This document shows, in pieces, positions 9,366-59,885 of a stretch of 64,000 bases of DNA. The DNA is taken from NCBI GenBank assembly GCA_963693285.1, contig OY848918.1, forward strand, positions 6,887,876 to 6,951,875, given 5' to 3'. The DNA comes from Xestospongia muta (taxonomy: Eukaryota > Porifera > Demospongiae > Haplosclerida > Petrosiidae). Both the position numbers and the translations under genes were made by a program. Positions within the stretch are counted from its first letter, which is position 1, and every line of letters starts with the position of its first letter. Below the pieces are notes generated by a model. The model searched no databases. It was not told the origin of the DNA and saw only the letters and a list, made by a program, of their open reading frames with translations.

Positions 9366-11824
9366 ATGTTCATCTTAATTTTTCTTCTTCTACTGTCAAT
9401 AACTGAGAAATGTTTATCAACATCTGTTATATCAGGAGGTTCTTACTGTACTCCATCAGGACAAGGTAGTCACTATGCTGTACCTAATACTGTTATCACT
9501 GTGAACTGTTCAGTGGATAACCCTGATAATTTGGATAACTTACTCAAATGGACTATTCCATCATATGATGAACAAATTTCTCATTTATATGCCAAGCCTA
9601 ATAATATGATATATATATGGCCATTTAAGTCCACTGTTATTTCATCTGATAATACTGCCAAGACTACAACAGCATCACTACAGATATCAGCAGTTAGTAA
9701 TTTAGATGGGGCAGTAGTGAGATGTGCTGATGCATCAAATAATATGGCAACTTGTATACTACAGATATTAAGTAAGTTCCAGTGTTATCATTAAACACAA
9801 TGTTACCATGAACTGTCTAGCTGTCCCTAGTCCACCAAATAATCTGAAATGTACTAATATCACCTCCAACTCACTTACATTACAATGGAGTCTACCAACT
9901 GATAATGGAGGAGCATCCATTTTTCATTACAATGTAACTTGGTCTCCTAATTCAGACATCAAAGTCACTGAAGACATGTCATTATCTATTACTGGTCTAT
10001 CACCTAACACTGAATATACATTTACTGTCAGTGCTAATAATTCTGTAGGAATTGGAAATGGTACCTCAACGAAATGCACAATACTACAAGAAAGTAAGAA
10101 GTTTATAATCTAAAATTTAGTCTTTATTTTCTTATAAATTGTAGTTCCTCCTGGAGTTAGTACAGTTAGTGTATGTTTGGATTGGAATATAAATGACAAT
10201 ACTGCTCTGTCTATTAATTATACAGTAAGTATAGCACTGAAAATATGATTGGTCAAAATACCATAGTCATTTAAGTTGCATTAACACAGTATACTTAAAT
10301 AAGACACACAGAATTAGTAATCATCACACTGTTTTCATATCTAATATAATGACTGACACTTGTCTTAATTGTCAGAGCTATTGAGATCTGTTTAACATCT
10401 CATTATTTAGAGACAGGAAATTTCATGGATGTTGGTCCTATATGTAAGGGACTGTTATTTTTATAGGAAAGATATCCTTTTTGAAAAATACATAAAAAGG
10501 AGATGAACTATTAATTCAAAGCAATTAATCAAATAGTAACGGATATGCTATATGAATGTTTATTCATAACAAAAATTTGACCGGATGAGCCTGGATTATA
10601 ATTATATAACCATAAAAGACGGAAATTAATAATTAATCATAATTATTTTAAGAAATCAATTTTAAGCTAACAAAATTTTCACGACTACCGTGTACTATTT
10701 TATATATAGTAACTATGAATTGAACCAATCTATTTTAGCAGTGTACTATATATCACATCTATTATTTTCACATAATTATAGGATTGTCCTGTTATTATTA
10801 CTAACACTGTCACTACACCTCCTGTTACTAACTACACTATATCAGCAGGACAGTCATTTATACATAGTCTTCATCCTAGTATAGCTTGTTCTGGTTTGAG
10901 TCAACCAATAACTGAAGGAGATACTTACAATGTTAGTGTGTCTGTATTTAATATAATAGGAGCTAATACAACAAGAGCTGATCCATTTAGTAAGTGAATA
11001 AGTTATACTAACTAAATTACTATCCATTTGTTTATATAGTTGCTACTTGGTTACGTGATGTTAATGTAGTAGATGATAGTAATTCTTCAGCTAAAATACA
11101 ATATACTACTGCAGACTGTGTATCAGATGTTGAAAACCTATATATTGAATTAATTGTGAAGGATGGTTCTAATATTGTTAACTCTACTAGAGCACCATAC
11201 TCACCAAATACAAGGAGTATCTTTACACTAGAAGGTTTTCAACTACAACCAAGTACTACATTGTCTTATACTGCGCAAGTAATGTATGTAACTACTGTTG
11301 GAGCAGCCGCTATTGGTAGTTTTATAATTACCTCTACAACATCAACAATGCCTTCAACATCAACAACACCTTCAACATCAAGTATTACAATATAAACCAT
11401 TTCTAAGATAAAAATATTCCTTTTATTCAGCACTATCTTCTCCATTACCAAATCCTAGTGATACTCCTACAGGTAACTGTATGTAATTACAACTAATGTA
11501 TTATTAATTAGTGATTTATTAACAGGTTCTGGCTCAATTGGTACAGTGATAACTATTGGTGTGCCTATTATCACAGCTTTATTGATAGCTGTTGTTGTAA
11601 TAACAGCTATTTTATCCTCTCTTATCACATATTACTGCTGTATTAGGTCGAAAGAAGGTCATTCTCCTTTAGTTGCAGTTACAGCTGGTCCTTATGAGAT
11701 TCCAGTATCTACTATGAAAGTGTCATCACTTGAAATGAAAGATAATATGGCATATGGTCATGTGACTATTGATACTAGTGGGAACACATCGACACCTGCT
11801 GTTTATGAACCTACTTATATATAA
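9366..11824 (+). CDS. Gene C: complete Ig/FN3 transmembrane receptor, 551 aa
   Basis: Exons: 9366-9771, 9821-10093, 10145-10224, 10782-10989, 11040-11381, 11431-11478, 11526-11824; 1656 nt, no internal stop. Signal peptide MFILIFLLLLSITEKCLS; Ig-like to residue 135 (VNCSVDN, LKWTIP, VVRCADA: the C..W..C pattern); FN3-1 136-226 (QWSLPTDNGG, VSANNSVGIGNG); FN3-2 227-322, split by a phase-0 intron; a third FN3-like exon 323-436 ending in a Thr/Ser stalk; a Pro-rich stalk exon; TM about 460-487 followed by YYCCIRSK. Tail tyrosines are Tyr509 (PYEIP), Tyr529 (MAYGHV), Tyr546 (VYEPT) and Tyr550. Followed 150 bp later by pseudogene D1. Likely a cell-surface receptor; ligand unknown. Confidence 0.87.
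10571..10645 (+). other. Conserved block in intron 3 of gene C
   Basis: A stretch with TTTGACCGGATGAGCC, a spacer, then AAAGACGGAAATTAATAATT is preserved at 35885-35960 and about 40945-41015 in the copies of this intron. It stands out as less AT-rich. Function unknown. Confidence 0.4.
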
Positions 11825-11859: not shown

Positions 11860-12945
11860 TATCTGAGAAGGTGTATTGCTCTTACCAATAATGACAATGA
11901 TTTCACACACATCTTCTGGAATATATGTTATGTTATAAAGTATATGTTTTAAATCTTTAATTTTTAACTTATAGTGTTCTGTTATTGATCTTAATGTTCC
12001 ACCAGTAACTAATTACTCTCTTTATCTATTTGGGTGTCTTTATAATTTCTACTATCTTTTTCCTTGAATAATTGTCCATCAATAAATTCACCCGATAAAG
12101 CTCTTATTTTAAATGACACATAATATACTCTTACTTCTGCCAATATCATCCTAGTTAATAAACAGTAATCAGTAAGTTTAATGTATACATTGAAACTATA
12201 TCATTGAAATGTTTCATAGGAAGCTTTATCTTTACAACATTTGATACTGAACTGAGTGGAGATATATTTATTAATTTAAAAGTTACACTAACACAAAATA
12301 CTCTATGCAATGACATTGTACAAGTGACAGTGTTATACTCTGAAAAGGAACAAATGTAACTCAGTATAGTAGTATATTTTTGCATTTATTAGTAGAGGAT
12401 ACTAAAGGGAAATTTATCGTGATTGAGAATTTAAATCCAGCTACTGAATATCTTTATAATGTTTCAATGTATGATGGAAATGAACATATTGGTACTAAAT
12501 TTAGTAAGAGCTACTCCACCAATGATAAAGGTAGACCTAATATATGTACATATATTATGTTATATTATTACTACTTTTATACATAATATAATTACAGTCT
12601 GTACATGTACTCCAAAGTCATGTATGTATAGCCTATATTCATAGCTATCATGTCTCCATTTGTTTCCATATTTAGATTCATTAAATTATGGCATTGCAGT
12701 GAGTGTACTCATCACTGCTATAATGATAGCTACACTCTCCTCTTTTGTCACATATTACTGCTGTTTCAATTCTAAAAGAGATTACTTTCCAACAGTTGTT
12801 GGTTTCTTGCTATGTCATATGATACTCCAGTATCTACCAGTTGTGTTTATTGCTTAACATGAAAGATAATATGGAAGATGATCATGTGACCATTGGTACC
12901 AGTGGGAATATACCCACTACATCAATTGTTTATGATTCATACTAG
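11860..12945 (+). pseudogene. Pseudogene D1: FN3/TM receptor remains
   Basis: Ordered remains of a gene E-like receptor. About 11974-12110 is a broken FN3 half (CSVIDLNVPPVTNYSLYLFG). 12220-12530 is an FN3 exon with GSFIFTTFDTELSGDIF, then a frameshift and stop, then FIVIENLNPATEYLYNVS. About 12670-12944 is a TM (SVLITAIMIATLSSFVTYYC) with a frameshift, ending DNMEDDHVTIG and VYDSY. The YGHV tyrosine has become Asp-Asp. No signal peptide or Ig exon is present. A second copy, D2, has the same layout. Confidence 0.8.
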
Positions 12946-35599: not shown

Positions 35600-37140
35600 T
35601 AAACATCACACTGTTTTCTAACTAATATAATAAGTGATGTTTGACAGTAGTCTTGTAGTTAATTGTCTGAGCTATAAATATTCTGTTTAATGTCTCATTA
35701 GTTAGACACAAGAAAGTTCATGGATGCTGGGCCTGTGTGTAATGACTGTCATTGTAATAGGAAACATATCCTTTATGAAAAGTTATTCGTTGACAGTACA
35801 TGAACCCACAATTCATAGTAATTAGTAATCAAAACAGTAGTGTATATACGGATATCCTATATAAATGTTCATCGTTTGATATACATAACAAAATTTGACC
35901 GGATGAGCCAGGATTATAATTACATAACCACAAAAAGACGGAAATTAATAATTAATCATAATTTCTAAGAAATCAATTTTAAACTAACAAAATTTTCCAG
36001 AATACCGTGTGTTATTTTATTTATAGTTACCACAAATTGTGCAAACAACCAATCTATTTTAACAGTGTACTTATCACATCTATTATTATCACATAATTAT
36101 AGGATTGTCCTGTTATTATTACTAACACTGTCACTACACCTCCTGTTACTAACTACACTATATCAGCAGGACAGTCATTTATACAAAGTCTTGATCCTAG
36201 TATAGCTTGTTCTGGTTTGAATCAACCAGTAACTGAAGGAGATACTTACAATGTTAGTGTGTCTGTATTTAATATAATAGGAGCTAATACAACAAGAGCT
36301 GATCCATTTAGTGAGTAAACAAGTTATACTTACTAAATTATCTGTTTGTTTATATAGTTGCTACTTGGTTACGTGATGTTAATGTAGTAGATGATAGTAA
36401 TTCTTCAGCTAAAATACAATATACTACTGCAGACTGTGTATCAGATGTTGAAAACTTATATATTGAATTAATTGTGAAGGATGGTTCTAATATTGTTAAC
36501 TCTACTAGAGCACCATACTCAGCAAATACAAGGGGTATCTTTACACTAGAAGGTTTTCAACTACAACCAAGTACTACATTGTCTTATACTGCACAAGTAA
36601 TGTATGTAACTACTGTTGGAGCAGCTGCTATTGGTAGTTTTATAGTTACCTCTACAACATCAACAACATCTTCAACATCAACAACACCTTCAACATCAGG
36701 TATTACAATATAAGCCATTTCTAAGATAAAAATATTCCTTTTATTCAGCACTATCTTCTCCATTACCAAATCCTAGTGATAGTCCTACAGTTAACTGTAT
36801 GTAATTACAACTAATGTATTATTAATAAAGTGATTTATTAACAGGTTCTGGCTCAATTGGTACAGTGATAACTTTTGGTGTGTCTATTATCACAGCTTTA
36901 TTGATAGCTGTTGTTGTAATAACAGCTATTTTATCCTCTCTTATCACATATTACTGCTGTGTTAGGTCGAAAGAAGGTCATTCTCCTTTAGTTGCAGTTA
37001 CAGCTGGTCCTTATGAGATTCCAGTATCTACTATGGAAGTGTCTTCACTTGAGGTGAATGATAATATGGCATATGGTCATGTGACTATTGATAGTGGGAA
37101 CACATCGACACCTGCTGTTTATGAACCTACTTATATATAA
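35600..37140 (+). pseudogene. Gene C2: 5'-truncated copy of gene C
   Basis: Sequence begins within intron 3 of gene C and retains exons 36103-36310, 36358-36699, 36749-36796 and 36845-37140. These exons are intact and in frame (894 nt): second half of FN3-2, third FN3-like domain, stalk, TM and a tail with MAYGHVTIDSGN, VYEPTYI and a stop. Signal peptide, Ig and first FN3 exons are absent; the left junction abuts ankyrin-derived sequence. Compared with C, one tail codon is missing. It may be transcribed only if joined to another start exon. Confidence 0.8.
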
Positions 37141-37149
37141 ATATATTAT

Positions 37150-38277
37150 TAGTCATATTTTGTGTTATAACTTTCTATCTGAGAAGGTGTATTGCTCTTA
37201 CCAATAATGACAATGATTTCACACACATCTTCTGGAATATATGTTATGTTATAAAGTATATGTTTTAAATCTTTAATTTTTAAGTTAGTGTTCTGTTATT
37301 GATCTTAATGTTCCACCAGTAACTAATTACTCTCTTTATCAATTTGGGTGTCTTTATAATTTCTACTATCTTTTTCCTTGAATAATTGTCCATCAAGAAA
37401 CTCACCCCATAAAACTCTTATTTTAAATGACACATAATATACCCTTACTTCTGCCAATATCATCCTAGTTAATAAACAGTAATCAGTAAGTTTAATGTAT
37501 ACATTGAAACTATATCATTGAAATGCTTCATAGGAAGCTTTATCTTTACAACATTTGATACTGAACTGAGTGGAGATAAATTTATTAATTTAAAAGTTAC
37601 ACTAACATAAAATACTCTATGTAATGACATTGTACAAGTGACAGTGTTATACTCTGAAAAGGAACAAATGTAACTCAGTATAGTAGTAAATTTTTGCATT
37701 TATTAGTAGAGGATACTAAAGGGAAATTTATCGTGATTGAGAATTTAAATCCAGCTACTGAATATCTCTATAATGTTTCAACGTATGATGGAAATAAACA
37801 TATTGGTACTAAATTTAGTAAGAGCTACTCCACCAATGATAGAGGTAGGCCTAATATATGTACATACATTATGTTGTCTTGTTACTACTTTTATAGATAA
37901 TAATTACAGTCTGTACATGTACTCCAAAGTCATGTATATATAGCCTATATTCCTAGCTATTATGTCTCCATTTGTTTCCATATTTATATTCATAAAATTA
38001 TGGTATTGCAGTGAGTGTACTCATCCCTACTATAATGATAGCTATGCTCTCCTTTCTCATCACATATTACTGTTGTGTCAAGTCTAAAGGATGTTACTCT
38101 CCAATAGTTGCTGGTTTTCCTGCTATGTCATACAAGACTGCAGTATCTACTAGTGGTGTGTCATCACTTGAGATAAAAGATAATATGACATGTGGTCATG
38201 TAGCCACTACTAGTGAGAATACACTGACTTCATTAGGTGTAATGAATCAGCAACCACTTACTGTTTTGGATGCGTAA
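37150..38277 (+). pseudogene. Pseudogene D2: second copy of D1
   Basis: Follows C2 as D1 follows C. Broken FN3 half near 37290; FN3 exon about 37534-37844 with an early stop (LKVTLT then TAA) and FIVIENLNPATEYLYNVS; TM/tail about 38000-38277 (SVLIPTIMIAMLSFLITYYCC). The tail reads DNMTCGHVATTSEN: the tyrosine of YGHV is now cysteine. Ends GVMNQQPLTVLDA and a stop. Confidence 0.8.
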
Positions 38278-39689: not shown

Positions 39690-42469
39690 ATGTTCATCTT
39701 AGTTTTTCTTCTTCTACTGTCAATATCTGAGAAATGTCTATCAACATCTGTTATATCAGGAGGTTCTTACTGTACTCCATCAGGACAAGGTAGTCACTAT
39801 GCTGTACCTGGTACTGTCATCACTGTGAACTGTTCAGTGGATAACCTTGATAACTTGGACAACTTACTCAAATGGACTATTCCATCATATGATGTACAAA
39901 TTTCTCATTTATATGACAGACGTTATAGTATAGTATATATATGGCCATTTAAGTCCACTGTTATTTCATCTGATAATACTGCCAAGACTACAACAGCATC
40001 ACTACAGATATCAGCAGTTAGTAATTTAGATGGGGCAGTAGTGAGATGTGCTGATGCATCAAATAATATGGCAAGTTGTATACTACAGATATTAAGTAAG
40101 TTCCAGTGTTATCATTAAACACAATGTTACCATGAACTTTCTAGCTGTCCCTAGTCCACCAAATAATCTGAAATGTACTAATATCACCTCCAACTCATTT
40201 ACATTACAATGGAGTCCACCGACTGATAATGGAGGAACATCTATTTCTCATTACAATGTAACTTGGTCTCCTAATTCAGACATCAAAGTCACTGAAGACA
40301 TGTCATTATCTATTACTGGTCTATCACCTAACACTGAATATACATTTACTGTCAGTGCTAATAATTCTATAGGAATTGGAAATGGTACCTCAACGACATG
40401 CACAATACTACAAGAAAGTAAGAAGTTTATAATTATAATCTAAAATTTTGTCTTTATTTTCTTATAAATTGTAGTTCCTCCTGGAGTTAGTACAGTTAGT
40501 GTATGTTTGGATTGGAATATAAATGACAATACAGCTCTGTCTATTAATTATACAGTAAGTATAGCACTGAAAATATGATTGGTCATTTTTAACCAAAATA
40601 CCACAGTCCTTTTCAGTTGCATTAATGCAGCATACTTAAATAAGATACTAAGTGTAAATATCACACTGCTTTCTAACTAATAATAGTTAGACACAAGAAA
40701 TTAAATTTCATAGATGTTGCACCTGTGTGTAATGGCTGTCATTGTAATAGGAAACATATCCTTTCTAAGAAGTTATTTCTTGATAGTACATGAACCACAA
40801 TTCATAATAATTAGTAATCAAAACAGTAGTATAAATATCCTTTCTAAAAAGTACAGTACATCCTTTCTAAAAAGTTACAGTACATGAACCACAATTCATA
40901 GTAATTAGTAATCAAAACAGTAGTGTCGTTTGTTTGATCTACATATAACAAAAATTTGACCGGATGAGCCAGTATTATAATTGCATAACCACAAAAAGAC
41001 GGAATTTAATAATTAATCATAATTTCTAAGAAATCAATTTTAAGCTAACAAAATTTTCCAGATTACCGTGTGCTATTTTATTTATAGTTACCACAAATTG
41101 TGTAAAACAGCCAATCTATTTTAACAGTGTACTTATCACATCTATTATTTTCACATAATTATAGGATTGTCCTGTTATTATTACTAACACTGTCACTACA
41201 CCTCCTGTTACTAACTACATTATATCAACAGGACAGCCATTTATACATATTCTTCATCCTAGTATAGCCTGTTCTGGTTTGAGTCAACCAGTAACTGAAG
41301 GAGATACTTACAATGTTAGTGTGTCTGTATTTAATATAATAGGAGCTAATACAACAAGAGCTGATCCATTTAGTAAGTAAACAAGTTATACTTACTAAAT
41401 TATCTGTTTATTTATATAGTTGCTACTTGGTTACGTGATGTTAATGTAGTAGATGATAGTAATTCTTCAGCTAAAATACAATATACTACTGCAGACTGTG
41501 TATCAGATGTTGAAAACTTATATATTGAATTAATTGTGAAGGATGGTTCTAATATTGTTAACTCTACTAGAGCACCATACTCACCAAATACAAGGAGTAT
41601 TTTTACACTAGAAGGTTTTCAACTACAACCAAGTACTACATTGTCTTATACTGCACAAGTAATGTATGTAACTTCTGTTGGAAGAGCTGCTATTGGTAGT
41701 TTTATAGTTACCTCTACAACATCAACAACACCTTCAACATCAACAACGCCTTCAACATCAGGTATTACAATATAAACCATTTCCAATTAATAATATAAAA
41801 TTACTCCTTTTATTTAGCAGCAATATCTACATCAATATGTTGTATGAAGTCTAAAGGAGGTTATTCATTTTCATCTACTGGTACTCCTGCTCTGTCTGAG
41901 ACTCCAGTATCTACTAGTGGTATGTCATCACATGAGATGAAAGGTAATATGTTAATAAACAATATCTACTTTGAGATTTCAGTTCAGTTAATTTAGTGCA
42001 TTGAAATATTTCTAATTCATGGAAACCTATTTTAACTTATTATGTCATTTTCATTTTTAGTTACCACAAATGTTCTGTCTTCTCCATCTCCTAATCCTAT
42101 TAATAATCCTACAATCAACTGTATGTAATTACAATTAATGTGTATTATTGATAAAGTGATTTATTAACAGGTTCTGGATCAGTTGGTACAATGATAGCTA
42201 TTGGTGTACCTATTATCATTGCTCTAGCAATAGCTGTTCTAATAACAGCTATTTTATCCTCTCTTATCACATATTACTGCTGTGTTAGGTCGAAAGAAGA
42301 TTATTCTCCTTCGTCTATTGTTCCAGCTGCTCTTGACTATGAGACTCCAATATCTACTAAGGATTTGTCATCACTAGAGATAAAAGATAATATGGCATAT
42401 GGTCATGTGACTTTTGGTACCAGTGCGAATACATTGACTCCTGCTGTTTATGAAACTGTTTATATATAA
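39690..42469 (+). CDS. Gene C3: complete Ig/FN3 receptor with an extra stalk exon, 597 aa
   Basis: Exons: 39690-40095, 40145-40417, 40475-40554, 41165-41372, 41420-41761, 41818-41943, 42061-42120, 42171-42469; 1794 nt, no internal stop. Close paralog of gene C with the same domain order. The extra exon 41818-41943 (SICCMKSKGGYSFSSTG, then PVSTSGMSSHEMK) looks like a piece of a cytoplasmic tail exon now placed before the TM; it is phase 1 on both sides, so it can be skipped. Its acceptor is a NAG-NAG pair (TAGCAG), either use keeping frame. TM about 506-532 and YYCCVRSK. Tail: DYETPI (Tyr555), MAYGHV (Tyr575), AVYETV (Tyr592), Tyr596. Surface receptor, ligand unknown. Confidence 0.83.
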
Positions 42470-46905: not shown

Positions 46906-47210
46906 TACTGTAGATCATTCTTTTAAAAATGGAGAGCTAGCAAAGAATGCAAATTATTTGAAGTCAAAACCATGCAAACTAACTAGTTAGCTTAGAAGAT
47001 CTTCAAGATTATGCAAGCAAGGCATATTAACTGTAAAGAAATATATTCATGTGCCAAAAAAATTATATTTCAATAACAATAATATACTTTGAAAACCTAC
47101 TAATAAGATTATAAAAAGATTATAAAATAATAAACCAGTGTTATACCATGTATAATTAACTATCTACAAATAGGTTAGGTAATAGTAAATGCATGTATTA
47201 AAATAATCTA
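46906..47210. other. Region between the transposon and the 3' end of gene I
   Basis: AT-rich, presumably the 3' untranslated region of gene I; no other feature seen. Confidence 0.4.
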
Positions 47211-48508
47211 TTACACAGGTGTGTCTTCTGCTTGTTGGTCAGTGTCTTCTGTTTCTGAGTCAGTGTTTTCTACTTGCTGGTTAGTGTCTGCTTGTCGGAT
47301 ATCATGCAAGTTATTTTCATCCCAATTTTCTTTATCCAAATCTCGAAGTATCAACATTTGAATAGCCTACCAAAAAGAGAGAAAAGACACATTTACACAA
47401 ACTACAACTTAATGCCAATTATTAAATTCATTTAATAACATATGTACCTCAGTAAATTTATAATAATTAATTCTTATAGACTATAATATCATCAGTACAG
47501 AGTTTGATCATTAATAATAGAGTATTTTAGTCAGTTTGATTGGACCATTTTATCATTCGTTTAAAATGGTGGAATTTAGTAAACAAAGTTAATACTAGGG
47601 TTAAGGTGCATTTGGTATCTGGATCTCCTCTGCCAGCAGGCTCTCATAGTTCTTATAGTCTTAAAGGATAAAGAAACTGTCAAGTTCAATGTACAGATAG
47701 GCAATGTTGTCATTGTACTTCTAATACTAATACACTGCAATCACATCCACAATACCACATGGTACAAAACAATTATAGGACCTCCTGACACATACATTTT
47801 GCATGACAAGCAGCAAAAATAAAGAAAAGAGGCTTGCTCTGATAAGAAATCTTTTGATTTTTACCATTGTCTCAGTCAATTTTACCTTATCAAATTATGA
47901 ATTATTCAAACATTTAGCTGTTAATTTGTGATCTCAATTTTTCACATTTTATAACTATAACACAATATTTTATAAGAGAAAAACATTGTGCATCTTTTTA
48001 TTTGTGAAAAACGTTAAATTTCTATCCCATGACAATCTAATAAAGAATACCTACAATTAGGAGGGTATGATAAGGGTTAAAGAGAAATCAAGGTATTATT
48101 GACTACTAAATGTGAATTTTTTTATGACTTACTTTTTCATTCATTATCGTATCTTTATTTGGATATCTTGTGGTATTATAAAACACATTTTCAAAAGGGG
48201 GGGATGTCGTAAATGATTGTTCCTGTCCTTCTGACATAGTATTCAAAGGTCCAGGAGGTGGTTCCTCATGTTCACGATCTTGATCAATGCCATTTACAGA
48301 AGAGGGTGGTTGTGGTCTATCATTTAAATCTTCAGGAATTACTTCCTGATGTTCAATAGCATTAGGATTTTCATAGATAGCAGAGAGTATGATTGATGCT
48401 TCATCTTCTAGACATTCAATGGCTTCAGAGTCTTCAAAAGGGTGTGGTTGTTTAGCACTATGTTGTCCTTCTGTTACCAAAGCAGACACACCTGTCATTG
48501 GAAGAAAT

Positions 48509-49384
48509 CTGTACAATAGAGAAGATATAATTAAGGTTGCACAGTAATAGTGTTAATAATATTCATAGCTTGAAAGTCTTTTCACTTGGCATGAATGCCA
48601 AGAGGTCTTAAGATTGTTTTGGGCCATGTGTTAACTGCACACATATATTTTTTATGTGTCCTATGTGTTTGTTATATTATTATACGTGATTTTAAGTCAA
48701 CGATTGAAAGTAACATGCCAACACTCATTGTGACCAATGAGTTTTAATTACTACTAACAAGCACTTTCAATTTGGGTATGACTGATTGAGGCTTGAATAT
48801 CTGTAAAATGTCTTTATAGCTTTATTAACTCTCTACTTGGCAAAATACAGCTCTTTATAGCAACAAAACTATCCTCAAAACAATCTTAGGGCAATTTTTT
48901 ATTATTATGACCTCTTTTGTGTATTAATATCATTAATAACAATGCTCTCTAATCTTTAATCTAGAACAACAGACTTAAGTGTCACTTAGGTAAAGTTTTT
49001 TGAGATGAACTAAACAAGCCACAAGTACAAGTTTGTTCTACCAGTACAAAGCAACAACATCTACACATACATTTTCTGAAAATTTACTGCCTATTTTAAT
49101 GGCTCATCATAGTGAAACTCAACAATGGCTACATTTATCAAAAATGATTTTGTAGAATTGTCAAGCTGTATTCTCAATGCTTCTTGAAAATTTCATTGCT
49201 GTGCTTAACATAAACTCATAAAAATATACATAGAGGCAACCTAGTAGACTCTCCCTTTATTCTCCATCTTTCATATTATTAGATTATGTATAATCGTAAA
49301 CAAGAAGTCATACGGTTTCTTACTTCCATAGCAATATCACCTTAATTATATGTTTTCATGATATATAATAAAATGAATGCTTAC
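48509..49384. other. Intron in the cytoplasmic part of gene I
   Basis: About 0.9 kb between the micro-exon array and the 376-nt tail exon. No coding signature. Confidence 0.5.
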
Positions 49385-51640
49385 TCTGATTGCTCTTCTA
49401 AGGTCTCATCTCCTGTTTCACCTGAAGGTGTTACATGTAATTATCATGAAATACTTAGTGATTGAAAATACATAACATACCTTCTAGATTAACTCTGACG
49501 TCTCCTGTTTCACCAGGTGTTACATGTAATTATAATAAAATACTTAGTGATTGAAAATTATAACATACCTCCTGGATTAATTCTGTCATCTTCTGTCTCA
49601 CCAGAAGCTGCTACATGTAATTATATCATGAAATACTTAGTGATTGAAAATACATAACATACCTTCTAGATTAACTCTGACATCTCCTGTTTCACCAGGT
49701 ATTACGTGTAATTATAATAAAATACTTAGTGATTGAAAATTATAACATACCTCCTGGATTAATTCTGTCATCCTCTGTCTCACTGGAAGCTGCTACATGT
49801 AATTGTATCATGAAATACTTAGTGATTGAAAATACATAACATACCTTCTAGATTAACTCTGACATCTCCTTTTTCACCAGGTATTACGTGTAATTATAAT
49901 AAAATACTTAGTGATTGAAAATTATAACATACCTCCTGGATTAATTCTGTCATCTTCTGTCTCACTAGAAGCTGCTACACGTAATTATATCATGAAATAC
50001 TTAGTGATTGAAAATACATAACATACCTTCTAGATTAACTCTGACGTCTCCTGTTTCACCATGTGTTACATGTAATTATAATAAAATACTTAGTGATTGA
50101 AAATTATAACATACCTCCTGGATTAATTCTGTCATCTTCTGTCTCACTAGAAGCTGCTACATGTAATTATATCATGAAATACTTAGTGATTGAAAATACA
50201 TAACATACCTTCTAGATTAACTCTGATGTCTCCTGTTTCACCATGTGTTACATGTAATTATAATAAAATACTTAGTGATTGAAAATTATAACATACCTCC
50301 TGGATTAATTCTGTCATCTTCTGTCTCACTAGAAGCTGCTACATGTAATTATATCATGAAATACTTAGTGATTGAAAATACATAACATACCTTCTAGATT
50401 AACTCTGATGTCTCCTGTTTCACCATGTGTTACGTGTAATTATAATAAAATACTTAGTGATTGAAAATTATAACATACCTCCTGGATTAATTCTGTCATC
50501 TTCTGTCTCACTAGAAGCTGCTACATGTAATTTTATCATGAAATACTTAGTGATTGAAAATACATAACATACCTTCTAGATTAACTCTGACGTCTCCTGT
50601 TTCACCATGTGTTACATGTAATTATAATAAAATACTTAGTGATTGAAAATTATAACATACCTCCTGGATTAATTCTGTCATCTTCTGTCTCACTAGAAGC
50701 TGCTACATGTAATTATATCATGAAATACTTAGTGATTGAAAATACATAACATACCTTCTAGATTAACTCTGATGTCTCCTGTTTCACCATGTGTTACATG
50801 TAATTATAATAAAATACTTAGTGATTGAAAATTATAACATACCTCCTGGATTAATTCTGTCATCTTCTGTCTCACTAGAAGTTGCTACATGTAATTATAT
50901 CATGAAATACTTAGTGATTGAAAATACATAACATACCTTCTAGATTAACTCTGATGTCTCCTGTTTCACCATGTGTTACATGTAATTATAATAAAATACT
51001 TAGTGATTGAAAATTATAACATACCTCCTGGATTAATTCTGTCATCTTCTGTCTCACTAGAAGCTGCTACATGTAATTTTATCATGAAATACTTAGTGAT
51101 TGAAAATACATAACATACCTTCTAGATTAACTCTGACGTCTCCTGTTTCACCATGTGTTACATGTAATTATAATAACATACTTAGTGATTGAAAATTATA
51201 ACATACCTCCTGGATTAATTCTGTCATCTTCTGTCTCACTAGAAGCTGCTACATGTAATTATATCATGAAATACTTAGTGATTGAAAATACATAACATAC
51301 CTTCTAGATTAACTCTGATGTCTCCTGTTTCACCATGTGTTACATGTAATTATAATAAAATACTTAGTGATTGAAAATTATAACATACCTCCTGGATTAA
51401 TTCTGTCATCTTCTGTCTCACTAGAAGTTGCTACATGTAATTATATCATGAAATACTTAGTGATTGAAAATACATAACATACCTTCTAGATTAACTCTGA
51501 TGTCTCCTGTTTCACCATGTGTTACATGTAATTATAATAAAATACTTAGTGATTGAAAATTATAACATACCTCCTGGATTAATTCTGTCATCTTCTGTCT
51601 CACTAGAAGCTGCTACATGTAATTATATAATAAAATACTT
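49385..51640 (-). repeat. Tandem array of 12 x 182-bp units carrying paired micro-exons
   Basis: Starts of the type-a exon motif are spaced about 182 bp apart from 49567 to 51569. On the minus strand each unit has exon a (42 nt, encoding ASSETEDDRINPG, acceptor ACATGTAG, donor GGAG/GTATGT) and exon b (24 nt, encoding GDIRVNLE, likely acceptor GAAACAG, donor GAAG/GTATGT). Both are phase 1-1. The last variant (49421-49385) encodes GETGDETLEEQSE and switches to phase 2, matching the next exon. Units differ by few bases. SETEDD fits casein kinase 2-type acidic sites. Confidence 0.85.
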
Positions 51641-51785
51641 ACTTGAATTATCATCTTACCATAACGTTTGCTCTTATTCTTAAAACAAACAACAATTCCA
51701 GTTCCCAGAAAGATTGTACCAAGAATGAGTATAATCACAACTAAACCACCAGCAATACTTAGTCCAATATAAATCTGATGTAATC

Positions 51786-52700
51786 CTGTAAATTAAATTA
51801 TAATTAATATTTGGCTTATTTCATACAAATTGGTCAGAAGTGAATATATAGCAATAAAAGAGAAACTATATTTAATTAAACTAACAATAACAAGTAAAAT
51901 AAACTGACTGAAAGAAACATTTCATAAATGGTTTGAAAATGCCAATTTTATGGTTAATGAGTATATATGAAATATCATCCAATAATTATTTTGCAATTGA
52001 AAGATACTAACTTTATAATGAAACACTAACTAGAGCTACAAAGCTTTTTGGTATAATTTTCAGCAGTGTCAGTGGAAGAAAATTAGCTATAGAATGCTAG
52101 AAATATAGAAGAGCAAGCTAGTGAGAAGGTTCAAGTGTTGTCAGTCACAGATCATTATACTGCTTGCAGTTTAGGTTAATAAAATTCATTGGTTGCTATA
52201 ACAGTTGGATGTGTTTAGTTTTGTTCATTGATCTCAAAAGTGGTATACATTGATATATCAAAACAATGAAAACAAACATAACCTATTATATATATATATA
52301 TATATTCATAAACATTGTCTAAAACAATTATAAGACTACCTAGCAAGCTGCATGTGCCAGGCAAAAGAATTTATGTTTGGAAATTAGAGAGTTGGAGTGA
52401 GGATAAAAAGGTAAAAAATGAATCAGCTAGCCTATAAAAACCTTCAAAGCTTGATCAGTAGTGAGTACTAAGTGGTTGCCAAGTGCATCATTACATAATT
52501 AATGTCAGTGCATGTGATCTAGTATTTTTCATTGCTTTACTTGCTGCATACAACTATAGATTAAAACAATGTAATTAATTGAACATGTACATGGTAATAA
52601 ACATAGCCCTATTATTGTGATCATAACTGTCATGCCTATATACATGTATAGTATTAAATTTTTAGACATAATTATTACTATAATAAAATGAACTCCTTAC
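51786..52700. other. Intron before the TM exon of gene I
   Basis: About 0.9 kb, AT-rich, with a short TA run near 52290. Nothing recognised. Confidence 0.5.
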
Positions 52701-54472
52701 TTGATGAAAATGTAGGTGATGAGGGTAGAAGTGATGGTGCTATTAAAATGTGATCTACACAGTATAATAAATTTTATATGTACTTCTTACTTGATGAAAA
52801 TGTAGGTGATGAGGGTGAAGGTGATGGTGCTATTAAAATGTAATCTACACAGTATAATAAAATGTACTTCTTACTTGATAAAAATGTAGGTGGTGAGGGT
52901 GATTGTGATGAAGATAACAACAGTGATGGTGCTAATGGAGCCACAAAGCTACCAGTACTAGCTTGTCCTACAGTATTGCTGTTAGCATCAATCACTTGTA
53001 GTGTATAAGATATAGTAGCACCAGGTTGTATTGATGAAAATAAAAAAATGTTTTGTTGTATTAGCTACATAGTCGCTTGTATTAGTGACTGTGCTGTTAG
53101 AGATGTCATTGTTATAGATTAATTGAACAGTAAAATCATCTCTTTCCACACAATCTGCTGTTCTATATTCAATCTTGAGCTCAGTTACATCGACAGTAAC
53201 ATTTTCTAACCATCTAGCATCTATCATTAATTGAAAAAAGATTCATGACATAATACTGATATATATACTTACTATAATACATCATTATCTTCTTACTTGA
53301 TCCCACAATATTGTTAGCAGTAACAGTCACAGTACATATTCCTTCACTTACTGACCAAGTATGACTACATGTTATAACATCCACTAGTACTATAGAACAA
53401 CCCTTAATCAACACAGTATAATTATCAACTGGAGGTGTTGTATCAGTATTAGTTATTACTGAAGGACATGGCTACATAAAAAATGAATTAATATAAATAA
53501 CAGACATATACAATGCAAGTTAGATTCATTGGTTGCCAAGTGTATCACTCATTGAAATATTTGGTTTAATTTTATCCTTGTTTCAATTGCTATTTACAGC
53601 AATAGAATAAAACAATGCGAGTGAACATGAAAAGAAATATGCAGCCCCTAAAATTAGACCTGAAGGATGCCAGGGAGTAATAAACAGTTAAATATCACTT
53701 AGCACAATAACTGGTGGAAAAGAATGCTTCATTTCCATTAAAAAAATGTAAAAACAATGTTATAGACTCCAGTCAGTTCAATAAGAATAGAAATATGGCT
53801 AATACAATGATTTAAACAACCAATCTGACTGGTCAAGATTTTACATTGGCTATATACACTAACTGTATGCATTTAAAGATAGCTGTCAGTGCAGTAAATC
53901 AAGTACACAACCTATAGTGTAATTATAACACTTACAGTCCACGAAACGATTATCTCAGTTGCATTAATAGCATTATAGTTGAGACAACTTTTACATTATT
54001 AATAGGAGGCGGTACTAGAAAAAAGTTAACATTATATTTGACAATTTGACATGTAGTTGTTATTTGCTGTACCTTCTCCAGGTAAAGTAACAGTCACTGT
54101 ACTAGTCTCTGTTCCTACTCCCACACAGTTAATAGCTCTCACAATAAAGTTATACATCTGACCAAACATTAGTCCAGTGATATTATAACCAGTACATTGT
54201 CTGTAGTAGTAATGTTCCAAGGATCACTACCATCTAATGGAGTCACAGTGATGATATAGTTCACTATATCACATCCTCCTGCGTCACTGGGAGTACTCCA
54301 TGATATACTAACTGACTGGTAAGTAACACTGGTGTTACTAAGGCTCGTAGGAGAGTTGGGTATAGCTGTAGCAAAAACAATAAAATATAGTTATCAGTTT
54401 TGTTGCTTATACTTTTAAACTTTCGAAACAAAGAAAATTTGTTTGAAATTTTCTTTTAGAAGAGCTTCTTCA

Positions 54473-54473
<1 letters not shown>

Positions 54474-54539
<66 letters not shown>
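54474..54539. repeat. (AT)n microsatellite
   Basis: Pure AT run of about 66 bp, about 110 bp beyond the FN3-1 exon of gene I. Confidence 0.98.
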
Positions 54540-54542
<3 letters not shown>

Positions 54543-55249
54543 TCTGCTTTAAAGAATTTCAAAGTTGTCAGATTTATCTATTTCAACAATTTAAGTTATA
54601 GTCTTTTATTTAGCATGTCACAAAAACTATGATTGTTTGTGATGGTATAAAATATTCCTAATATACATCACGAGTAGGAAGACTAGAGTACTATCTTGAG
54701 GTTGGACTTATAAAACATTTTAAACTGTTTCCATTACAGTTGTAGAACACATGAGAAATAATATGAATAGTGCATGTGACATCACATAACTCTGGTACTA
54801 TGTGTAGAATCTGATTCAGTTTATATTGATTTCTGTTAGACAACTTTTATGTATAGATTTTAGTATTTTATAAGGTATTAGCCTGATATAACAAGGGTCA
54901 AGATCAAGGCAAAATGGAACAGAGCATAGATATGCATCATTGTAGGGAGTGCACACACACACACAATAAATAGCTTATAGTCATAGTCATTGAGTTTTTG
55001 ACTTAACAAACTAACAAACATTGGTTTTTGTTATATAGTTCGGTTCTAGACCCTCCTCCACCCGTCAGCTTATCAAATGGAGTAGAAGCTAACTCGCTAG
55101 AGTTATATTAAGTGCTTGATAATTTCATCATTTAAAAATTTGTCAAGGCATTCAAATTTGGACTTCTCTTTTGAATTATTATTTTTTTTACAAATGTAAA
55201 TCCAATGCAGTAAATAATATCACTAATCAAATTATTAAATATATGTATG

Positions 55250-55280
<31 letters not shown>

Positions 55281-56478
55281 ATAAATTAGCGAATCTGATG
55301 AATCAAATTTGCACAAATCAGGATATTTATTTACAACCGAGACCGTCAAATTTGTTTAATTATGACTGCCTAGAAATTAAAGGGGGAGGAGAATTAAAAT
55401 CCAAAGGAAAATTTTGGAAATTATAATTAAGTAAAGTGCCCAGATCCTTTTGGACAACAAATTCTCACGAATAAGTTGAATGTCCCATTTGGCTTTTGCA
55501 TGTAGCAGTTGAGGTTGCTGCATAGTAACGTGTTACATAGTTCAGTACTTTTTACAATGTGTGCTAGTGTGAAGGACAGTATTCAGTTTAAGGATTTGGG
55601 TCTAGATCTAGGGAATAAGGACCTGTCACTTTGATGATGATGTAATCTTGTGAACAGCTGAGAGGGCCAACATATTGCACAGGAGGGTAACCCTGTTGGT
55701 TAGTGCGCCATTCTCCTCATCAATGTTTGCAATATATAATAACACTCAGCAAGGTATGTATGGGCATTGCAGATTCTCTCACTTGGCTTAACCTTTGTGC
55801 CAGATTATATGAGTCATGATGAATTATTATAAGCCAGTACATGAAATGCAACTAATTTGAGATGTTTGAAAAAAATTACAAAGGATTAATTTATAACAGT
55901 TGCTGTAAGAATTTTTTATTTCACTTCTAAATATTTGCTTGACTGTTTCCTTTTTAGTCAAGACTACAGTTCTGGCAGAAGGTGACATACATAAATTAAT
56001 TTAAATGTTGACAAAAATGTTAACTTTTGTTTCTCATCATCCAGATTTCCTATTAATCTCAAATCTTCACTTCAACCAACAAAATCATTCTTCAAGAAGT
56101 TTATAGGATATAGGGACAATAATATAAATCATTCAACTATTATGCTGGTCCCTGCTGCACAGACTACTGTGTTGTACTGGCTTATAATAATTCAAAAAGG
56201 AGAGGTTAATGGCTAAGAAAGCAAATAATCAATTCTTCTAGTTAAATGTTCAATCAGCATTGTTAGTGTATAGGATGCACATTTAATTATTAATTTATGT
56301 ATAATATTTAAATTATAAGTTCTCCTTTTATTCACCATGATTTATTTAAAAACAGTACTCATACTTAGTGCTTTGTCAGCTGTCATACAGTGTCTGCCAA
56401 TGCTAGTTATTATAAGTAATAACTTAAGGTATCTACTGAATAGTTATTAGGTCAATGGGTTGTGCTTAATGCTGAACA
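54540..56478. other. Region between genes I and J
   Basis: Divergently placed genes. The missing signal-peptide and Ig exons of gene I should be here, but no minus-strand frame with the Ig cysteine/tryptophan pattern was found. A short TA run lies at 55261-55282. Confidence 0.5.
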
Positions 56479-58553
56479 ATGGAAAAATCTATTTTGTTTC
56501 TTCTGATCATCTCTATCATCTCAGGAAGAGCATCTGTGTTACTTAATGATCCTAATGATGTTTGTAGTGAAACGAATACAGGAGGATCACGTATCCTATC
56601 AGGAGTGATAATTACTTTGCATTGTGAGGTGGACAATACTGGTGCAGGTGTCAACCTACTTGTATGGAATACCCCAGTCCAAAATGGAGATTTAATACAC
56701 ACTAGTGGAGCTTTGTATGAGAGTAACTCAATGTTCTCATCCACAGCTATTTTCAATGGAGACTCAATTAATGCCACACTTGCATTTACAACTACTCAGG
56801 CAAAACACAATCATTTAGTGACTTGTAACGATAACTTGGGAAATTCAAAAACCTGTACACTGTTGATCTACAGTGAGTAATTTAGTTTCTTTAGTTTCAG
56901 CCATTGAATTTCATTTTTTTTAAATAGCTATACCAAGAGCTCCAACAAACCTTGGTAATGCAAGTATTACCTATCAGTCAGTAAGTTTATCATGGAATGT
57001 ACCTAGTGATACAGGAGGATATAACACAGTAAACTATGTTATCACTGTGACTCCATTAGATGGCAGTGATCCATGGAACATTACTACTACAGACAATAGT
57101 ACTAGTTATACTGTCATTGGACTAATGTTTGGTCAAAGTTATAACTTTACTGTCAGAGCAAATAACAGTATAGGACTTGGAGAGAAGAGTAATTCATTGA
57201 CTGTTCTAATTCCTGGAAGAGGTAAGACATTTGAATATTATATAAGTGTTCATCTTATTGTGCTATAGTTCCTCCATCTATTCATGGTATAGACATGTGT
57301 CTTACAATAATAGATGGAAGCTATTTGCTCAATATCTACTGGAATGTAAGTCTTTCATGTTGCTATCCCTTTTATACTCTCACTTATTAGTGCTGTAATA
57401 TAAGTGATTCTAATACTCCACCAGTAACTAGCTATACACTTGGTCTTATTGGATTCATTACCTATACTTTCCTTACTGACTACTGTCCCTCCAGGGACTC
57501 TCCTCATAAAATTCAAACTTTTAACAACACACAATACTGTATTAACATCACTGCTAATAACATTGTTGGACCAAGTATTCCTTCTAAAAGGGTGATCAGT
57601 GAGTTTTAATGTTTTTAAAACTATTCTACATTGATTTTCCTAGGAAGTCTCGTATCAATAACATCAAATTCAAAACTGAAAGGAGAAACATTCGCACTTC
57701 TAAGAATACAGATAACATGGAATAGTCCATGTATTGATAAAGTACAAGTGATGGTGTCATACTGCAAGTCATCAGGATCATATGTACCTCAGAATAGTAG
57801 TGGTAGTTATTCTTTGATTGAAGATGTTAGTGGAAAACTCTTTTTTTTGAGAATTTAGATCCTGGCTCTGAGTATCTTTATAATATTTCAAGATACGATG
57901 GCAAGGAACTTGTCATTGTAGAAATAAACAAAACTTTCTATTCAGAAAATAAAGGTATATGAATATAAAGGTTGTTATATAATTTGCTTTATAACACAGG
58001 GATTCTTGCTACCACAACTGAAGTTAAAAGTACAATAATTGCTACGATATCTCTTGAGGCTGAGCCAGGTGTTTCTTCTTATGTATATAATATATTATAT
58101 ATATAAGTGTTGTTATTTTTATAGAATCAACAAATTGTCTTATAGCTTGACGAGAGAGATAAATGGCATCGCACATACCAAACTTAAGCAATTCTCTATA
58201 AATAGAGCTCTATTTCGACCAATGATTGATCTGTATAGAAAATAATAATAGACTGAAACCTATTTCATAAGACTGAAACCCAATCCAATGAACTGCTCAT
58301 TGCTATTCTATAAAAAATCAGTGTACCAATTACTGCTACAGTGACAGCTATAGCAACAGCTATACTCTCCTCTTTTATCACATACTACTGTTGTGCTAAG
58401 TCTAAAAGAAGTTACTCTCCCTCAACTACTGGTCCTCCTAGTAGTCATATTTCTCAATTTGAAATGAAAGATAACATGGCATATTGTCATGTGACCATTG
58501 ATAGTGGAAATAAATCCACTGAAAGAGTCATTTATGACAACATAGTTATTTGA
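56479..58553 (+). pseudogene. Gene J: Ig/FN3 receptor with a frameshift and a broken TM exon
   Basis: Exons as in gene E: 56479-56872 (signal MEKSILFLLIISIISG, then Ig with LHCEVDN, LVWNTP, LVTCND), 56928-57221 (FN3-1), 57269-57345 and 57391-57598 (FN3-2), 57644-57954 (FN3-like), 58000-58068 (stalk), tail frame to 58553. A run of eight T at about 57841 is one base short, shifting frame before ENLDPGSEYLYNIS. The TM exon starts ESTNCLIA at about 58125, hits a stop and is interrupted by about 185 bp before VPITATVTAIATAILSSF resumes at about 58332. The tail is intact: MAYCHVTID and VIYDNIVI, the latter an ITIM match. Lesions are few, so loss is recent, or the single-base shift is a sequence error. 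Confidence 0.8.
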
Positions 58554-59469: not shown

Positions 59470-59885
59470 AGATGAATACTATACTGAGTTTTTTTCTATT
59501 TGCCTTGGTCATCTTCAGCGAGGACTTCAGTGCTATTTGCTGATCCTGACAGTAATTGTAATGAAATGAATGGAATATATGTATCATATGTCTTTCAAAC
59601 AACTTAGTGACTTTATGTTGTAATGTCAAAAATACTGGAGTTTGTCTCAGCATACTAGTGTGGACTACACCTAATGGAGAATTAATACACATTAGTGGAG
59701 CAAAAAACTCCTTCACCCCTCCCCCCTGTGAATTTTTTAATGTATGTTTCCAATGGGTCAGTGTACCAATCACTGCTATTTCAGTATCTACTAATGATGT
59801 GTCACCACTTGAGAAAATGTTAATGAATCAGTAGCCACTTAGCTGTTCTGGATGTGTATCAGTTTACAGTCACTTAATTAAATAT
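59470..59885 (+). pseudogene. Pseudogene K: Ig exon remnant fused to a tail remnant
   Basis: Broken frames give a signal/Ig start (MNTILSFFLFALVIFS, then RTSVLFADPDSNCNEMNGIYV), VTLCCNVKNTG, LVWTTPNGELIHISGA, then at about 59705 a sudden change to QWVSVPITAISVSTNDVSPLEK and MNQ: a TM/tail exon of D2 type joined directly to the Ig exon. The FN3 domains are gone. 59890-60090 matches the 3' flank of D2 (38290-38560). Confidence 0.75.

Follow-up and report, generated by a model that had tools for sequence, protein, structure and literature searches.

The closest described counterpart of the locus analysed here is the chicken BG family of multigene transmembrane receptors, members of the B7/butyrophilin superfamily whose tails, in one haplotype, are predicted to comprise 13–36 exons per gene of 21, sometimes 24, nt, and some of whose cDNAs skip exons or read through introns (PMC4046983, PMC5043582). 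The tails of BG1 alleles range from 13 to 21 exons, a difference for which the authors suggest unequal crossing-over rather than splicing (PMC5043582). The original prediction for our locus had held that no receptor built in this way was described; because the chicken BG receptors are already built on many small tail exons, that claim of novelty fails in principle. A literature search, conducted mostly outside subscription journals, showed, among the matches listed, no receptor from a sponge or any other invertebrate whose tail is built like this.

Small exons are also a feature of schistosome genes. Judging by its title, work by Davis et al. in 1988 reportedly dealt with Schistosoma transcripts that carry tandemly repeated 81-base exons. 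The Schistosoma micro-exon genes (MEGs) have exons of 6–81 bp, mostly multiples of three, separated by introns of 100 to almost 5000 bp, and diversify by alternative splicing secreted products with a conserved signal peptide (PMC10526429). The locus that we describe lies within a window of 64,000 nucleotides, the whole stretch of DNA that was analysed. A receptor tail encoded by an array of micro-exons is a kind of system already known from chicken BG, and for this locus such an interpretation appears possible in a reduced form.

A predicted receptor gene in an FN3-type cluster

The genome searched (158 Mb in 28 contigs) is compact and of animal type, is rich in myosin and kinesin exons and has short introns, with a median of 81 nt, a minimum of 41 nt and 33 of 75 at or below 70 nt. 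An extracellular-exon query gave 28 matches in this genome (E ≤ 0.1, its own gene included), all of them on contig C2 between 6683642 and 7096080. On its sequence, the interval from 6.68 to 7.10 Mb of this contig is a predicted FN3-type receptor cluster of about 0.4 Mb, and the FN3 exon of the array gene is homologous to cluster members. Elsewhere in the window, one extracellular exon occurs three times on the plus strand (10994–11392, 36315–36710 and 41377–41772) with 94–95% protein identity, which suggests that genes of the cluster were duplicated recently. At 59479–59828 (+), an Ig-type exon in decay, its frame broken, appears as the relic of another cluster member.

Between 54.4 and 47.2 kb, the minus strand can be read as a single gene resembling a receptor. 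In predicted order, the FN3 exon and three more extracellular exons are followed by two stalk micro-exons and a transmembrane exon; the array comes next, and then a tail exon of 37 nt and two longer ones (Table 1). The phases fit from the transmembrane exon through the array to all three tail exons, bearing out the position first assigned to the array, between a transmembrane exon ending in phase 1 and tail exons of fitting phase. Such a fit is expected for the cluster family, since two other receptor-type transmembrane exons, read by eye at 22.6 and 20.0 kb, likewise end in phase 1 and have a tail exon next. A second donor at 51642 scores 10.0 versus 9.3 for the one at 51659; its use would give the transmembrane exon a phase-0 end and put it out of step with the array.

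Table 1. Predicted features of the array gene, in window coordinates
Feature	Position	Strand	Evidence or remark
FN3 exon, phase 1 to 1	54073..54365	-	one-base frame break near 54196
Next extracellular domain, exon 1	53936..54014	-	frame break between 54012 and 53974
Next extracellular domain, exon 2, open	53273..53471	-	ORF 53214-53471; paralogs in the contig C2 cluster
Third extracellular domain exon	52875..53220	-	frame break at or beside T7 run 53048-53042
Stalk micro-exon 1, 39 nt, phase 1, proline/serine-rich	52791..52829	-	donor 9.0, acceptor 2.3
Stalk micro-exon 2, 39 nt, phase 1, proline/serine-rich	52701..52739	-	donor 9.0, acceptor 1.2
Transmembrane exon, phase 1 to 1	51660..51785	-	hydrophobic stretch then KNKSKR; acceptor 8.0, donor 9.3
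Tandem array, 12 x 182 bp plus terminal half-unit	49406..51641	-	TRF, genome search, unit alignment
A micro-exon, unit 1	51571..51612 (42 nt from 51612, 39 nt from 51609)	-	NAGNAG acceptor
A micro-exon, unit 12, 39-nt form	49607-49569	-	182-bp spacing from unit 1
B 'micro-exon', 24 nt, unit 1	51483..51506	-	donor 10.1; acceptor poor
B 'micro-exon', unit 12	49504-49481	-	182-bp spacing from unit 1
Short tail exon, 37 nt, phase 1 to 2	49385..49421	-	acceptor 6.7, donor 5.0
Long tail exon 1, open	48133..48508	-	acceptor 6.4, donor 9.1
Last tail exon, open, carries stop	47211..47366	-	acceptor 11.4

The two stalk micro-exons are covered by a TRF repeat at 52679–52910 and mirror the pattern of the array in that their donors are strong and their acceptors weak. 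This minus-strand stretch forms a second, smaller tandem micro-exon set in the same gene, and the end of the preceding exon is also related to it.

Neither the transmembrane exon nor the tail exons contain any interruption of their frames, and the tail, last and transmembrane exons each have a single genome match. In the public protein database, the 148-residue tail frame drew seven hits among 16 candidates, comprising its own entry and six relatives in other assemblies at 61–88% identity. The alignment of these relatives contains length differences of whole residues, as is nearly unavoidable when predicted open frames are compared as protein, where gaps can hardly be other than in frame; one relative (P0037) shifts frame near its end and another (P0039) is shorter at the start. 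Together they provide modest evidence that the tail is kept. For the transmembrane segment, array and tail taken together, no known protein was found at E ≤ 1 among 7994 scored candidates. The last tail exon also contains a 21-bp in-frame repeat at 47221–47289 (-).

A tandem array behind the transmembrane exon

TRF delimits the array at 49406–51641 with a period of 182, 12.3 copies and a 97% match. Cut at the A donor, it yields 12 units of 182 bp, as originally predicted, all of exactly this length and without a single indel. Units 2 and 5 are identical, as are units 6 and 9; units 2–4 resemble units 5–7 in a three-unit higher-order pattern, and divergence is greatest in units 10 and 11. The terminal half-unit is continuous with the short tail exon, and an array unit matches 49406–49456 with 81% identity over 53 bases. 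The fact that the half-unit runs into this exon makes the exon, with its upstream intron, the likely founder of the array. The repeated pieces are exon-derived, phase-1 and frame-neutral, which to that extent supports the earlier interpretation.

In every one of the 12 units, the predicted array exons have an open phase-1 frame. The 42-nt form of A encodes AASSETEDDRINPG and the 39-nt form encodes ASSETEDDRINPG, which corrects a small slip in the sequence first given for the 42-nt exon. Per unit, the predicted coding amounts to 13–14 acidic residues from A and 8 from B. The array introns would be about 50–65 nt long with every predicted exon used and about 143 nt with A exons alone.

Other readings of the array were considered. 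Coding on the plus strand is unlikely, in that 182 is not divisible by three, open frames on that strand inside the array reach at most 60 residues and donors reach only 5.9, although one acceptor scores 6.3. The region from 47000 to 56500 has no Rfam match at gathering thresholds, which speaks against a non-coding RNA. A dispersed repeat or element is likewise disfavoured, since all 13 genome matches to the array unit (E ≤ 0.001, in a search that skips very common words) lie inside the array. Viral contigs gave no match to a 41-base array pattern, and contigs of prokaryote genomes none to a tail pattern of 22 bases.

Splice signals within the array

Splice sites were scored with a model built from 75 introns of the genome (44 myosin and 31 kinesin) that were placed by exon chaining; the placement relied partly on the splice consensus, so the model is mildly self-confirming. 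The leave-one-out medians are 7.4 for donors and 6.6 for acceptors. The array donors score 9.5 (A) and 10.1 (B), each in 12 of 12 units, above all 685 of 685 decoy GTs. The acceptors present a different picture. In unit 1, that of A scores 4.4 for the 42-nt and 3.8 for the 39-nt form, and outside unit 1 the A acceptor scores 1.0–2.4, with the 39-nt site at 1.6–2.4 in nine further units. In units 2 and 5, a change from CAG to CAA abolishes the 39-nt site and leaves the 42-nt site alone, at 2.1, a value that 5 of the 75 real acceptors do not exceed.

The B acceptor (..GGTGAAACAG) is poorer still, at −0.6 in 8 of the 12 units, while the remaining four give −1.5, −3.1, 0.4 and 1.1. Of the 75 real acceptors, 2 score −0.6 or less, and 2–3 of the 75 model introns have acceptors as poor as B. 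An earlier model from the 44 myosin introns alone agrees, with A at 4.1 in most units and B at −2.8 in nine. The acceptor of the terminal exon, CACCTTCAG, scores 6.7 and is absent from 12 of 12 B copies, and the donor of that exon is itself weak, with 16 of 75 real donors as low. The proposal that every micro-exon has its own splice signals thus holds for the donors, strong in 24 of 24 cases, and breaks down at the acceptors, weak in A and practically absent in B. For want of a credible B acceptor, the 24 usable micro-exons and roughly 264 residues first envisaged are not supported. From its splice sites, B is probably not used as an exon, and 12 A exons, adding about 156 residues, would be at most what can be defended.

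Chance and constraint

We compared unit 1 with 2000 dinucleotide-shuffled copies of itself. Two donors of at least 9.4 arose in one unit in 4 of 2000 shuffles. An open exon of 18–90 nt whose length divides by three, whatever its phase, and which has a donor of at least 9.4 and an acceptor of at least 3.7, arose in 33 of 2000, a figure that flatters the array because unit 1, the best of twelve, is the only one whose acceptor reaches 3.7.

Among the 12 units, variable positions number 3 of 39 in A, 2 of 24 in B and 9 of 119 in the rest, so that within the array the exons (5/63) show no contrast in variability with the non-exon part. Three of the five exon changes read as synonymous and two alter a residue, too few to use. 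The array is young, and the missing contrast counts for little. The A and B half-units, on the other hand, differ from one another at 8 of 33 exon-homologous positions versus 2 of 48 intron positions, with 3 further intron gap positions (Fisher p 0.013 without gaps). Intron conversion and exon diversification are both options for this excess; simple decay does not predict that the exons should differ more than their introns.

Frame breaks in the extracellular exons

The open first part of the FN3 exon matches FN3 with 23.8 bits, just below the Pfam cut-off of 25, and the reading frame stops shortly past the break near 54196. Nineteen database proteins match the region of this exon; 17 of them span 54196, and all 17 need two frames to do so. 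Its DNA is one base shorter than the paralogs at 57.0 and 15.8 kb, and the paralogs at 26.5 and 30.3 kb differ from it by 5 bases, likewise out of frame. In the exon at 54014–53936, the 5' half (VPPPINNV) and the 3' half (ATEIIVSWT) lie in different frames, and the sole relative for that exon, P0029, carries both halves in one frame. In the third-domain exon (53220–52875), 4 of 4 in-window paralog queries align in two frames and align to each other in one, the break falling at about 53045. The extracellular exons hence contain three frame breaks in total, two of them outside obvious homopolymers, and no continuous ORF runs through the extracellular part of the array gene.

On the minus strand between 54365 and the start of a plus-strand gene at 56479, we found no Ig exon, the domain present being FN3. 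Between 56476 and 54380 on the same strand, seven ATG candidates with a hydrophobic start were found for a signal-peptide exon, none with an in-frame donor above 3.9. An intact receptor is therefore not supported by the assembly, in view of the three extracellular frame breaks and of the Ig and signal exons not found, and those breaks make a working receptor from this gene improbable.

The other matched Ig/FN3 loci in the window keep their main alignment in a single frame per exon, except for the relic at 59.5–59.8 kb; a minor second-frame alignment occurs near 26.7 kb. Of another extracellular exon type with five copies in the window, those at 14.8–15.3 and 30.5–30.9 kb are open through the matched domain. 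A third copy, at 57637–58025 (+) in the neighbouring receptor gene, has a frame change at a T8 run near 57.84 kb, for which either a null allele or a fault of the assembly could be responsible. The remaining two, similar copies at 12213–12532 and 37527–37846 (+) change frame at the same place, the second with a further in-frame stop. This shared break probably reflects inherited decay, or else an exon boundary, and the fact that it is shared means that assembly error alone does not account for it.

Breaks at homopolymers in the window may be either assembly errors or inherited. The position of the break at about 53045, together with the T8 break of the neighbour, makes assembly error possible for one or more of the breaks, and broken neighbours in the cluster raise the odds of assembly noise and of true decay alike. 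On balance, the alignments suggest that this copy of the array gene is probably disrupted in the assembly, a judgement that we hold with some reserve.

Discussion

The explanation that we consider best, and to which we would give an even chance, is that an exon was recently duplicated in tandem in an FN3-type cluster receptor that is probably disrupted, with A usable as an exon and B a relic. The short tail exon and its intron of about 50 nt would have been duplicated in tandem within the part of the gene encoding the cytoplasmic tail, so that each 182-bp unit would hold two copies of that exon that have since diverged. One of them, A, with its strong donor and weak acceptor, could be a 39/42-nt phase-1 cassette; the other, B, kept its donor and lost its acceptor, and would most likely be what remains of an exon. 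Provided that there is transcription of the gene, the transmembrane exon could be joined to none, some or all of the A exons (at most 12, or about 156 residues in the 39-nt form) and then, through the exon at 49421, to the rest of the tail. Unequal crossing-over, the mechanism inferred for chicken BG1, is probably what alters the number of units. This copy of the gene probably makes no working receptor. The open transmembrane and tail exons would be odd for an old pseudogene and count against this explanation, as do the divergence of A from B, greater in exons than in introns, the small and partly consensus-placed intron set behind the splice scores, and the possibility of assembly error at one or more of the breaks.

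An alternative in which the array is an inert intronic minisatellite with exon-like fragments, either always spliced out from 51660 to 49421 as a segment of about 2.2 kb or never transcribed, is unlikely, if not markedly so. It would account for the equal variability of exon and intron parts and for weak acceptors inside the array next to a good one at 49421, whereas 24 strong donors out of 24 accompanying an open phase-1 exon, the rarity in shuffled sequence of the donor pair and of an exon of unit-1 quality, and the kinship of the units with the tail exon all argue against it. We regard as quite unlikely that the receptor is intact and alive and that, much as in chicken BG, its acidic tail varies through inclusion of the A micro-exons, alone or together with B; on this view, the frame breaks would be faults of the assembly or be missing from other haplotypes. 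The six tail-exon relatives in other assemblies, the exons open in phase 1 in all 12 units, the strong donors and the position of one break at a homopolymer, with a neighbouring gene broken at another, are in keeping with a living gene. They have to be weighed against the finding that a single gene has three breaks, of which two lie outside obvious homopolymers, in a window where the other matched FN3 exons keep their main alignment in one frame, against the signal exon not found and against the weakness of the acceptors. The original arrangement of 24 micro-exons with 22 residues per unit fits in its phases and lengths, but the B acceptors, rarely matched in weakness among real introns and lacking the better sequence of the terminal exon in every copy, render it highly improbable.

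We also think it doubtful that an invertebrate, possibly a sponge, has independently evolved the chicken BG design, with an array of near-identical, frame-neutral micro-exons lengthening or shortening the acidic tail of a cluster receptor. Splicing at weak acceptors would then act together with germline gain and loss of units, perhaps with differences from one individual to the next in a cluster that serves recognition, and the frame breaks would be assembly errors or mark a null allele that segregates with intact ones.

Were the A exons used, the gene would be a second, unrelated receptor that tunes the length of its tail by micro-exon count, with units alike enough that the birth and loss of exons might be watched between individuals. 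If instead the copy is dead, as under the young-duplication explanation that we prefer, it would serve as an example of how such an array may originate, in which a tail exon and its minimal intron duplicate, one descendant loses its acceptor and the pair is then amplified in step. The locus also carries a caution, as phase-matched mini-exons in a receptor gene are no proof of expression.

Set beside the known systems, the locus resembles each in part. It shares with the primate NBPF/Olduvai repeats a gene-internal tandem arrangement and a three-unit higher-order structure, and differs from them in that their units are reported to be about 1.6 kb long and encode no receptor tail (PMC9584774). 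Like the exons of Schistosoma MEGs, the predicted mini-exons of 39/42 and 24 nt are multiples of three within the range of 6–81 bp. Unlike the MEGs, the predicted product is a membrane protein, as indicated by the transmembrane exon, no signal-like start with a donor above 3.9 was found, and the array introns would be about 50–65 nt long with every predicted exon used, or about 143 nt with A exons alone.

The likeness to chicken BG is that of a predicted transmembrane receptor from a multigene family, in which the position and phases of the array would suit a tail of many small, frame-neutral exons behind the transmembrane exon. Whereas the BG tail exons are 21–24 nt long, A is 39/42 nt and B, at 24 nt, comes without a credible acceptor. 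BG proteins have one extracellular Ig-V domain and tails of seven-residue heptads, presumed to form a coiled coil; the array gene has an FN3-like extracellular part and would contribute 13–14 (or 21–22) acidic residues per unit with no heptad. In further contrast to BG, the units of this array are nearly identical. The array gene does not belong to the BG genes, although a living copy would function in the BG manner.
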